Virus record (IMG/VR): IMGVR_UViG_3300045912_000375
Location: 1 to 40,503 of that record
Direction: 5' to 3' (one strand)
Source of the DNA: a virus
DNA: 40,503 nt
Below, piece after piece: positions 1,725 through 40,503 of this stretch; the stretch's first letter is position 1; every line of letters begins with the position of its first letter. The notes beneath the pieces are model-generated. The model saw nothing but the letters and a program-made list of their open reading frames with translations, was not told the DNA's origin and made no database searches. The position numbers were made by a program, and so were the translations under genes.

Positions 1725-1753
1725 TTGACGCGCCCGCCGGGTGAGCGTATAAT
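1725..1753 (+). promoter_or_regulatory. Sigma70-type promoter for the first structured leader
   Basis: TTGACG at 1725-1730, a 17-base spacer and a consensus TATAAT at 1748-1753. The expected start of transcription is near 1760, which coincides with the 5' base of the first hairpin of the leader. Confidence 0.8.
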
Positions 1754-1759
1754 GACCTC

Positions 1760-1889
1760 GCCCGCACACACAAGAGCGGGCCGGCTGTGGCAAGCCTCTG
1801 AGTGGCCGCCTTTTTTCACGGTGGCCGGGGAATGGGTTCACTCAGGCCCTTGCCACCCCCGACACCGTGAAGAAAGGCGGTTTTTGTTT
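1760..1889 (+). ncRNA. Structured leader RNA 1: interleaved A-B-A'-B' inverted repeats ending in a terminator
   Basis: About 130 nt between a consensus promoter and the small gene at 1908. A 5' hairpin pairs GCCCGC (1760-1765) with GCGGGC (1776-1781). Arm A (1787-1804) pairs with A' (1839-1856) as 8 bp, a 2x2 internal loop, then 8 bp. Arm B (1806-1823) pairs with B' (1863-1880) over 18 bp including one U-G pair (1814 with 1872) that would be A-C on the other strand, so the RNA is read from the plus strand. B:B' is followed by TTTTTGTTT, as in an intrinsic terminator. The arms alternate A-B-A'-B', so A:A' and B:B' are either a pseudoknot or, more likely given the 1- and 6-base connecting loops, mutually exclusive. 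I infer an attenuator or a small RNA; no known family recognised. Confidence 0.72.
1806..1889 (+). terminator. Intrinsic terminator of leader RNA 1 (B:B')
   Basis: An 18-bp stem (1806-1823 with 1863-1880) is directly followed by a T-rich tract at 1881-1889. The large loop contains arm A', whose pairing with upstream arm A would compete with the terminator. Confidence 0.65.
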
Positions 1890-2956: not shown

Positions 2957-2970
2957 TGCTTGACATCGTG

Positions 2971-2979
2971 TGCTATACT
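2971..2979 (+). promoter_or_regulatory. Extended -10 promoter for the second structured leader
   Basis: TGCTATACT matches an extended -10 element (TGnTATAAT). A TTGACA lies at 2960-2965 but only 8 bases upstream, too close to serve as its -35. The predicted start near 2986 falls on the first base of arm A of the leader. Confidence 0.5.
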
Positions 2980-2985
2980 AGAAGT

Positions 2986-3100
2986 GCTTAGGGAATCGGA
3001 GGGCGTGTTTTTGTTCTCCCACATAGAGCCGTTGCTTTGCGCGCGCCCCGATTCCCTAAGCAAGAACCGGAGAACCGCAAGGCAACGGCTTTATGTTTTG
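2986..3100 (+). ncRNA. Structured leader RNA 2: same A-B-A'-B' topology as leader RNA 1
   Basis: Arm A (2986-2999) pairs perfectly over 14 bp with A' (3048-3061). Arm B (3021-3041) pairs with B' (3076-3096) over 21 bp including two G-U pairs (3036 with 3081, 3026 with 3091) that exist only in plus-strand RNA. The arms alternate A-B-A'-B', and B' runs into a T-rich tract (3091-3099), so B:B' resembles an intrinsic terminator and A:A' its competitor. The primary sequence is unlike leader RNA 1 although topology, stem lengths, promoter position and placement before a replication-region gene agree. Connecting loops are 21, 6 and 14 bases, less constrained than in leader 1, so a true pseudoknot is conceivable. 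No known RNA family recognised. Confidence 0.72.
3021..3100 (+). terminator. Intrinsic terminator-like hairpin of leader RNA 2 (B:B')
   Basis: A stem of up to 21 bp (3021-3041 with 3076-3096) whose 3' side merges into TTTATGTTTT. The T tract is broken by A and G, so termination is probably partial, which suits regulated read-through into the gene at 3110. Confidence 0.5.
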
Positions 3101-3109
3101 GAGGGCGCA

Positions 3110-3409
3110 ATGAAGAACTCTCATGGATGGATATATTTTCTGCGCGGCCCTGGGGGATTGGTAAAGATTGGGAAGACCAAACGCGAGCCAACACAAAGGA
3201 TAGCGGAATATTCCCCCCTGCTGCCGTTCACAACTGAACTCATATTGTCAATCCCAGTAACAGACCTGAATCAATGCGAGAGATTGTTTCATTCCATACA
3301 CACGGCTAATCGCGTTCGGGGAGAGTGGTTTAATTTTTCCGATGAGGAACTCAATGCACTGGTTTCTTACTGGGAAGAGAAGAACGCGAACAACGGCTTC
3401 GAGATGTAA
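3110..3409 (+). CDS. GIY-YIG-like protein of the T5orf172/MUG113 type
   Basis: 99 aa from ATG 3110, with GGAGGG at 3100-3105 as ribosome site. Residues 7-22 read W-I-Y-F-L-R-G-P-G-G-L-V-K-I-G-K, the I-Y-F-L...V-K-I-G-K-T signature of the T5orf172 branch of GIY-YIG domains. A conserved Arg follows (Q-R-I-A-E-Y), then a C-E-R-L-F-H helix and the R-G-E-W-F segment with the expected catalytic Glu. Such proteins are putative nucleases of phages and mobile elements, with unknown targets in most cases. Its DNA is visibly poorer in GC than its neighbours, suggesting recent acquisition. It lies directly after leader RNA 2, so the leader may control it together with the replication genes that follow. 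Confidence 0.8.
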   Translation: MKNSHGWIYFLRGPGGLVKIGKTKREPTQRIAEYSPLLPFTTELILSIPVTDLNQCERLFHSIHTANRVRGEWFNFSDEELNALVSYWEEKNANNGFEM

Positions 3410-3410
3410 G

Positions 3411-4070
3411 ATGAGCGTCGTCGCCAGTGCAGCCGTTTGGAAGAACTCGCGTGCAAAGGGCAATCAGTTGTTGGTCATGCTTGCCCTAGCCGACTTCGCC
3501 CGTGACGATGGGCACTGCTGGCCGTCCATTGACACCGTTTCCAAGTATGCTCGTATCGGACGCCGAGCCACGCAACGGGCGATACGTACCCTGGTCGAGG
3601 CAGGCGAACTGTCCATTGACGAAGGCGGGGGGCGGCACAAGACAAATACCTACCGCATTCTAATAATCGAAAAGGGCGTCAAAGAAACGCTGTTTAATTT
3701 GACCGAAAGGGCGTCGTTACTGACCGAAAGGGCGGCCCCAGCGACACCCGATCCGTTATTAACCATTAAGAACCGTAAGGGGCGCAAGCGCACCCCACCG
3801 GTGAAAACTGAAACACCCGAGGCGGTGGAAGCTTACAGGCGGGCAACACAACGCTACCCGAATAAGGCCACTTGGTCGGTGATCTCCGAGACGGTTGGAG
3901 AAGACGTGGCACGCTGGGAAAAGACCGTCGGCGCATACGTCTTGATGGGGTGGAACCCGGCGAACGTGTCTGGGATGCTCGAATACTTCAAACGCGGTGA
4001 GATACCCGCGCCGGGCCAAAAGAACGGCTCGAATACCCATACCGGCATGAGGTTGCCCGATGGCATCTAG
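3411..4070 (+). CDS. Winged-helix replication initiator / helicase-loader-like protein
   Basis: 219 aa from ATG 3411, one base after the previous stop. Residues 1-85 form a typical phage HTH_36-type winged helix: K-G-N-Q-L-L-V-M-L-A-L-A-D-F-A, then H-C-W-P-S-I-D-T-V, then R-A-T-Q-R-A-I-R-T-L and G-R-H-K-T-N-T-Y. A low-complexity linker precedes a helical C-terminal part with W-N-P-A-N-V-S-G-M-L-E-Y. This layout is common for phage replisome organisers that bind the origin and recruit the helicase encoded next. Its stop overlaps the helicase start by 11 bases, supporting coupled expression. Confidence 0.78.
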   Translation: MSVVASAAVWKNSRAKGNQLLVMLALADFARDDGHCWPSIDTVSKYARIGRRATQRAIRTLVEAGELSIDEGGGRHKTNTYRILIIEKGVKETLFNLTERASLLTERAAPATPDPLLTIKNRKGRKRTPPVKTETPEAVEAYRRATQRYPNKATWSVISETVGEDVARWEKTVGAYVLMGWNPANVSGMLEYFKRGEIPAPGQKNGSNTHTGMRLPDGI

Positions 4071-5043
4071 ACCCGAGGCATTCCGGCCGGACGACGTGCT
4101 GTTCACCCCGCCTGAGGCGGCGACGGCGACGGCCGAGGCCCTGGCCTACCGCCGTGAGCACCGGGACGAGGGCATTTACCTGGGCATTCGGGAAGTGGAT
4201 CAGTACCTGACGCCCGTTCTGCCTGACAATCTCGTGACCATCCTGGGCCGGCCGTCGGCTGGCAAGACCGGGCTGATGATGTGGTGGGCGCGGAACGAGG
4301 CGCACAAAATCTATCGGCGCGGCGAAACCGGCAAGGTGGTGGTGTACGTGACCTACGAGCAGGGGGTGGAAGACCTGATGGCTTTCAACGTGGCCGCCGA
4401 CAAGGGCCTGGGCATTGACAGGATGGCCGCCGGAAAGTTGAGCGACGACCAATGGGGCGACGTGATGCGCTCCCTGACCGGCGCGGTGACTCTGCCGCTC
4501 GTCATCATCGGACATAGCGCGCAGAAGCGCCGCCGCCGCCCGCGCCTGACCCTGACCAACGTCGCCGATACCCTGGCCTACATGGTGGACGAATTGAAAC
4601 TGATGCCGCACATGATTTTTGTGGACTACTTGCAGCGCATCCCTGGAGAGAAATATGCAGGCGACCGGCGCATGGAGGTAAGCGAGAACCTCGACCGCTG
4701 CAAGGACGGGGCGCTGGCATTCGGCGCGCCATGGGTGGTGGGGGTACAGGCCAAGCGGGAAGTGGATCAGCGCGCCGTGCCCGTGCCGGCGCTGGCCGAC
4801 GGCCAGGAGACAGCCAACATTGAGCAGGCCAGCGACAAGGTGCTGGGCATCGTGCGCCCGTGCAAGTACCGGAAGGACGGGGAGCAGTTCGGCTCGGTGA
4901 CGGTGCGCGGCAAGAACCAGATGCACATCAGCCTGCTGAAACAGAAGTTGGGGCGCGACAACGAGTCGGCCTGGATCGAGTTCGATCCGGCATATAACCG
5001 GCTGTTGGAGAAAGAGGTACTCGCGTATGACGGCTTGCACTAG
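4060..5043 (+). CDS. DnaB-like / RecA-fold replicative helicase ATPase
   Basis: 327 aa. Walker A is G-R-P-S-A-G-K-T-G (residues 63-71). A Y-E-Q segment follows V-V-V-Y-V-T, and Walker B is M-I-F-V-D-Y-L-Q-R-I (about 184-193). Late motifs include V-G-V-Q-A-K-R-E-V and K-N-Q-M-H-I-S-L-L-K-Q-K. This is the C-terminal ATPase of DnaB-type hexameric helicases; the usual N-terminal primase-binding domain is missing or reduced to about 40 residues. It presumably unwinds the phage fork with the primase at 2033 and the initiator at 3411. The gene overlaps its predecessor and ends with TAG, one of several genuine TAG stops here. Confidence 0.88.
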   Translation: MASRPEAFRPDDVLFTPPEAATATAEALAYRREHRDEGIYLGIREVDQYLTPVLPDNLVTILGRPSAGKTGLMMWWARNEAHKIYRRGETGKVVVYVTYEQGVEDLMAFNVAADKGLGIDRMAAGKLSDDQWGDVMRSLTGAVTLPLVIIGHSAQKRRRRPRLTLTNVADTLAYMVDELKLMPHMIFVDYLQRIPGEKYAGDRRMEVSENLDRCKDGALAFGAPWVVGVQAKREVDQRAVPVPALADGQETANIEQASDKVLGIVRPCKYRKDGEQFGSVTVRGKNQMHISLLKQKLGRDNESAWIEFDPAYNRLLEKEVLAYDGLH

Positions 5044-28665: not shown

Positions 28666-28763
28666 GGCAGTTGTGTCCCCTCGCACGCCCCTGGGTGAGC
28701 GCCGGGCAGGCCGCAGGGGAACGGCTCTTCGGGGCCAGCACCCTAGCCCGGCGCAAGACGGGC

Positions 28764-40373: not shown

Positions 40374-40503
40374 GTGAACGCACTTATGAAATCCGGGGGT
40401 GACCTCATCCGAAACTTGGACGACCTGAAGATACTCGCCGGGATGCTGGTCAAGTCCGGCCTGTTGCCCAGCGCCGTTCGCACCCCCGAAGCCGCCGCCG
40501 CCA
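40374..40503 (+). CDS. 5' end of the RecT-family gene (continues at base 1)
   Basis: GTG 40374 with AAGGAG eight bases upstream begins the frame that continues at base 128 of the window (the overlap ends at 40503). It supplies the N-terminus M-N-A-L-M-K-S-G-G-D missing or shortened in the copy at the start. The CDS is one gene in the circular genome. Confidence 0.88.
   Translation, partial: MNALMKSGGDLIRNLDDLKILAGMLVKSGLLPSAVRTPEAAAA
40377..40503. repeat. Terminal direct repeat, right copy
   Basis: Exact copy of bases 1-127, which closes the genome into a circle of 40376 bp. Confidence 0.93.

Follow-up and report, generated by a model that had tools for sequence, protein, structure and literature searches.

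An interleaved leader RNA before the GIY-YIG gene of a phage, a candidate transcription attenuator with counterparts of unrelated sequence in other phages

Results

The window, by which we mean the whole stretch of DNA analyzed, is the 40,503-base IMG/VR virus record IMGVR_UViG_3300045912_000375. It is a complete circular or circularly permuted phage genome of 40.4 kb, because its 127-bp ends (1-127 and 40377-40503) are identical. Its replication region lies on the + strand, with the late genes on the opposite strand, and reads RecT, two small genes, a first leader (leader 1), a small open reading frame (ORF), a primase-like gene, a second leader (leader 2), a GIY-YIG gene, an O-like initiator and a DnaB-like helicase. 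Leader 2 starts at about 2985 and has four arms in the order A-B-A'-B', followed by a T-rich end, a Shine-Dalgarno sequence and the GIY-YIG gene, whose start codon is the ATG at 3110. We suggest, with a probability of about 60%, that leader 2 belongs to a sequence-diverse class of phage transcription attenuators in which the antiterminator does not pair with the terminator's 5' arm but encloses it. The features of leader 2 and of the genes behind it are as follows.

2971..2979, + strand: extended -10 promoter element TGC-TATACT, predicted +1 at 2985-2986 (consensus match only)
2985..3005, + strand: arm A, transcript 5' end (repeat search)
3006..3020, + strand: loop L1, 15 nucleotides (nt), containing UUCUCCC at 3014-3020 (predicted fold)
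3021..3041, + strand: arm B, presumably the 5' arm of a terminator hairpin, within the A:A' loop (repeat search)
3042..3062, + strand: arm A' (repeat search)
3063..3075, + strand: loop L3, 13 nt (loop measurement)
3076..3096, + strand: arm B', presumably the terminator's 3' arm, with TTTATGT as its end (repeat search)
3091..3099, + strand: T-rich end TTATGTTTT, presumed release site (sequence; an interrupted T-tract, not a strong consensus terminator)
3100..3105, + strand: GGAGGG, Shine-Dalgarno sequence of the GIY-YIG gene, base-paired in the B state (predicted fold)
3110..3409, + strand: GIY-YIG gene of T5orf172/MUG113 type (Pfam PF13455, PF10544)
3411..4070, + strand: O-like replication initiator gene (PHROG 391 and others)
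4060..5043, + strand: DnaB-like helicase gene (Pfam PF03796)

Both pairings of leader 2 span 21 nt at 90% in the repeat search, and they are disjoint, with no base in common. An original prediction made from this DNA had described A/A' as a perfect stem of 14 bp; the long perfect stem stands, with a length of 15 bp (2985-2999/3048-3062), and can be extended to 21 positions with 2 mismatches (2985-3005/3042-3062). In B/B' (3021-3041/3076-3096) both non-Watson-Crick positions are G-U pairs on the + strand, as had been predicted, and the same agreement was found for B' running into TTTATGTTTT and for a +1 at the first base of A, where the extended -10 element places it. In the predicted B state, the UUCUCCC beside B pairs with the GIY-YIG Shine-Dalgarno sequence beside B'. 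This pairing was noticed in leader 2 only and could be a possible second layer of control.

Leader 2 is the sole interleaved pair in the window with perfect stems of at least 12 bp (G-U allowed) and the strongest in the genome, with a score above the maximum of every one of 60 whole-genome shuffles. Local dinucleotide shuffles never matched leader 2 (0/2000) or leader 1 (0/2000). These shuffles bear out the earlier judgment that chance was unlikely; the commonness of such alternating repeats in this genome, named beforehand as a refutation, was looked for and not seen.

Leader 1 lies 1.23 kb from leader 2 and has the following features.

1725..1753, + strand: promoter TTGACG-17-TATAAT, +1 at about 1760 (promoter scan)
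1787..1805, + strand: arm A (A' at 1838-1856)
1806..1880, + strand: terminator hairpin, B 1806-1829/B' 1857-1880, then TTTTTGTTT

Its arm A begins about 27 nt past the +1 and is preceded by an extra 5' hairpin. An extended -10 promoter had been claimed for both leaders, which is wrong for leader 1, whose promoter is a normal TTGACG-17-TATAAT.

The original prediction had also proposed scanning related phages for interleaved repeats between promoter and start codon, and in that scan the same plan recurs with unrelated sequences. The sample comprised 80 TerL-related viral loci and most of the long contigs behind them (about 2.05 Mb, both strands), within a whole scanning effort of about 3 Mb. 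The plan of promoter, A at +1, B, A', B', T-tract and gene was found in five further contigs of the terminase-related phages (about 2 Mb), in one additional locus (L166) and in cultured Flavobacterium phages, and the arm sequences are unrelated both between leaders and between phages. Interleaved matches that lack a promoter and T-tract and lie inside genes or at convergent gene ends (e.g., L145, L104, L111) were left uncounted. The leaders outside the window, apart from those of Flavobacterium phages, are listed here by contig and locus.

G016 (locus L115), first leader: TTGACA-17-TAGATT promoter with its +1 on the opening base of A (20 bp), then B, A' and a B' that leads straight into the T-tract, followed by AAGGAGG and ATG
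G016, second leader: 1.26 kb downstream of the first
G003/L094: precedes a GIY-YIG gene of T5orf172/MUG113 type, as in the window
L076: precedes a GIY-YIG homing endonuclease with NUMOD3
G002/L092: precedes a 680-aa ORF without a family match
G024/L059: precedes a DnaD-like helicase loader
L166: precedes a ParB/methyltransferase fusion (turned up in the GIY-YIG search)

A terminator-like hairpin with a T-tract between promoter and start codon is clear in leader 1, G016, G002, G024 and L166. When 88 promoter-to-terminator leaders from the 2.05 Mb, their promoters identified by consensus, were compared with shuffles of their non-terminator parts, with A allowed anywhere in about 75 nt, six had an interleaved A:A' at the floor p of 0.01 and none fell between 0.01 and 0.05. 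In all six, A begins no more than 1 nt from the predicted +1. A promoter-blind test for long-loop terminators with interleaving gave 14/213 in the TerL-related phages and 7/80 in a GIY-YIG and Flavobacterium set (duplicates and some likely noise included), and 0/22 in a small control of 313 kb of bacterial contigs.

In viral contigs and phages no close homologue turned up, either for leader 2 or for the GIY-YIG, primase-like and helicase proteins encoded around it, the helicase alone giving matches at <30%. A protein search found no relatives in bacterial genomes, where the leader-pattern search gave only four chance matches. The TerL-related contigs carry replication modules other than that of the window. 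We rejected a tie between the leader and its downstream gene: homologues of the L166 ParB/methyltransferase occur without a leader, and the Flavobacterium leaders precede different genes.

Several observations concern reading frames and other elements around the leaders. In each of the three leaders followed by a GIY-YIG gene (window 2957-3409; L094 5938-6713, - strand; L076 552-1355), the frame of that gene stays open across the entire leader and back to 24-28 nt upstream of the predicted start, and in leader 2 an SD-like GGAGGG with a TTG at 3011 lies in this frame. Among leaders not preceding GIY-YIG genes, only leader 1 of the window has its downstream frame open throughout. In a TerL-related phage contig (G015), L111 16569-16714 holds intergenic, interleaved long perfect repeats, which are not set between a promoter and a start codon as the leaders are.

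Covariation could be followed in a shorter version of the leader, found before the helicase gene of Flavobacterium phage mumin6-4. This leader is matched in 47 phage records, from which three sequence types were compared, with A/A' of GUGGAACG/CGUUCCAC, GUGAGACG/CGUCUCAC and GUGAGAAG/CUUCUCAC; in these phages of the same hosts, 3 of the 8 A pairs carry compensated changes. We aligned nine leaders of Bacteroidota phages, namely these three types and six IMG/VR relatives from a pattern search. All 184 of 184 alignment cells pair (100%), although the nine sequences are related and their cells are not independent events. Shifted pairings drop to 35-54%. Five pairs changed on both sides, three in A and two in B, and the covariation score was 0.228 vs 0.122 in shuffles, none of 500 shuffles scoring as high. 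Two-sided changes in both of the interleaved stems would be difficult to explain in another way. In this subgroup A begins about 8 nt past the presumed start; its plan is the same as that of leader 2, with homology to leader 2 not proven.

Computed folding of the growing RNA is ordered as well. In 10 of 11 leaders A:A' is at first the lowest-energy fold, and B:B' takes over only once B' has almost fully emerged. In leader 2 the A state has an advantage of about 10 kcal/mol or more until 12 of the 21 B' bases are out, and the two states are within about 2-3 kcal/mol of each other once complete; the energies of A:A' and B:B' are close in several leaders. Helix-crossing loops are 1 nt (L1) and 0 nt (L3) in leader 1 of the window, and L3 is 0 nt in G024 and 1 nt in L076. 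Because of these loops of 0-1 nt, the full A:A' and B:B' cannot coexist in those three leaders, and the class thus lacks the loops that a static H-type pseudoknot needs for its stems to coexist. Nor does it have the antiterminator of classical attenuation, which uses bases of the terminator stem: the arms are disjoint in the other members, as in leader 2.

Rfam gave no match above the gathering score at leaders 1 or 2, nor at leaders in eight other loci, and Mir-type matches below that score were rejected as hairpin noise. Elsewhere in the window, an int-alpA RNA (RF02996) scores above gathering at 28688-28753 (- strand), between structural genes and with no integrase or alpA gene beside it. 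DUF805b RNA and DUF3800-VIII RNA were seen at L186 160-194 and L166 15818-15883 (- strand), in phages that also carry a leader. The window encodes an Imm-5-like protein with Ala/Trp/Asp-rich repeats (997-1623), and a similar protein in the leader carrier L166 (2762-3400) suggests that the two may have related hosts.

Discussion

We propose that transcription of leader 2 would begin at the first base of A. On leaving the polymerase, A' would pair with A and close a loop that holds B, and the emerging B' would have to pair with B to build the terminator. Since a long helix would close the loop around B, and B' would be tethered to the polymerase, winding of the full B:B' would need A:A' to be opened. 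A:A' could act as an antiterminator on this topological argument, because B is in the closed loop and B' is held by the polymerase; it would share no base with the terminator and would block it by enclosing its 5' arm. If A:A' were prevented or undone, by a factor on A or A' or by altered elongation, B:B' would form and transcription would stop, with release of a leader transcript some 110 nt long. In leader 2, the B state would also mask the GIY-YIG Shine-Dalgarno sequence. We infer that B:B' would terminate transcription and that the A and B states would be mutually exclusive on leader 2 itself, with the A state as the read-through form. From the 0-1 nt loops of three members, the class would be a two-state switch rather than a fixed pseudoknot.

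The original prediction had offered a class of attenuators controlling replication genes, or else two small RNAs. The architecture of the former stands: the same plan recurs mostly before replication-type genes, and in Flavobacterium phages compensatory changes have kept it. The term "replication genes" covers too little, with 3 of about 10 leaders preceding GIY-YIG genes and 1 of about 10 preceding a ParB/methyltransferase gene. Two small RNAs may be present all the same, because the terminated leader would itself be an RNA of about 110 nt.

Several points weigh against our interpretation. The terminator scanner did not list leader 2, whose T-tract (TTTATGTTTT) is interrupted, and loops as long as its own (15 and 13 nt) would in themselves allow a partial pseudoknot. 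In L076, A:A' is the best fold throughout, and all computed energies are those of nested folds that ignore pseudoknots. With looser promoter settings, weaker matches blur the low-p tail, and the leader list is then strong members plus noise. Finally, leader 2 has no detectable homologue, and covariation is limited to a subgroup related by plan, not by sequence.

Other explanations account for part of these data. In a dual-purpose leader, which we regard as unlikely, the terminated RNA of about 110 nt would be a stable small RNA with an activity in trans, directed at the read-through mRNA of its own leader or at an incoming relative; by presenting A' (or A) to a nascent leader it would force the B state, and the diverging arms with their kept pairing would be a code for self-recognition. 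Such leaders have precedents in IsrK of Gifsy-1 and in P4 SeqA/CI, two phage systems whose terminated leader RNA acts on the read-through transcript (PMC4825925), and the unrelated arms of different leaders and phages, together with the compensated A pairs of Flavobacterium phages sharing hosts, fit the idea. However, the same scan found nothing interleaved in P4, the leaders lack an Rfam match, and the Flavobacterium phages with the leader have been described as virulent isolates (PMC7077304), so that a role in prophage immunity is not required. It is less probable still that the stems coexist in a constitutive, stable pseudoknot serving as a nuclease-resistant small RNA or mRNA cap without switching. 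The loops of leader 2 leave space for it, at least in part, and the 5' end at +1 lies within a helix in most members, but a full helix of at least 12 bp is too long to be crossed by the 0-1 nt loops of leader 1, G024 and L076, and the close energies of the two stems are switch-like.

Long inverted repeats near replication genes might also be a DNA-level element, such as protein-binding dyads, a cruciform or an origin. We consider this very improbable, given that the G-U pairs are on the + strand only, that the covariation includes G-U states and that promoter, arms, T-tract and start codon have a fixed polarity in every member. Equally hard to credit is coincidence, an ordinary leader hairpin and an ordinary terminator that chanced to interleave: taken singly, stems of either kind are common, and the bacterial control is small, but neither leader was matched in its shuffles, the plan recurs with A at +1, and both stems covary.

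The enclosure attenuator suggested for leader 2 could, more tentatively, extend to a widespread class of phage leader RNA defined by topology and not by sequence. The 5' end of the transcript would loop around the 5' arm of the terminator and antiterminate by stopping two strands from winding around each other; the arms would be free to diverge as private codes against cross-talk between neighboring leaders and related phages. Our literature search, which largely missed subscription journals, found no description of such leaders. Searches for regulatory RNA rely on conserved sequence and nested pairing, and a class held by interleaved topology alone would escape them. If true, this would be a different way to build an antiterminator, with a terminator arm enclosed and not base-paired, and it would reveal by what means some phages regulate the output of their replication and GIY-YIG genes. 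The covarying version in cultured Flavobacterium phages makes the idea testable in a published phage-host system.

In classical attenuators, including the antisense-controlled rep leaders of plasmids pT181 and pIP501, the antiterminator pairs with one arm of the terminator. The leaders described here are like them in lying between promoter and gene, often before replication genes, with two folds proposed to be exclusive, one of them a presumed intrinsic terminator, but A:A' and B:B' interleave without a shared base. The H-type pseudoknot riboswitches preQ1 and SAM-II have short stems, sufficiently long loops and a conserved ligand pocket; they share the A-B-A'-B' order of pairing segments, whereas our leaders have stems of 8-31 bp, unrelated sequences and some loops of 0-1 nt. 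The put RNA of HK022 is also found in phage leaders and allows polymerase to read through terminators in cis, as we propose here, but it consists of non-interleaved hairpins that act on the polymerase. The nearest functional precedents are IsrK and P4 SeqA/CI, phage leaders with a short terminated and a long read-through form (both forms being predicted for the leaders described here) upstream of regulatory or replication genes; P4 was rejected as an interleaved precedent. The leaders would work like an attenuator, although attenuators as usually defined have an antiterminator that overlaps the terminator; the class is also outside the static H-type pseudoknot.
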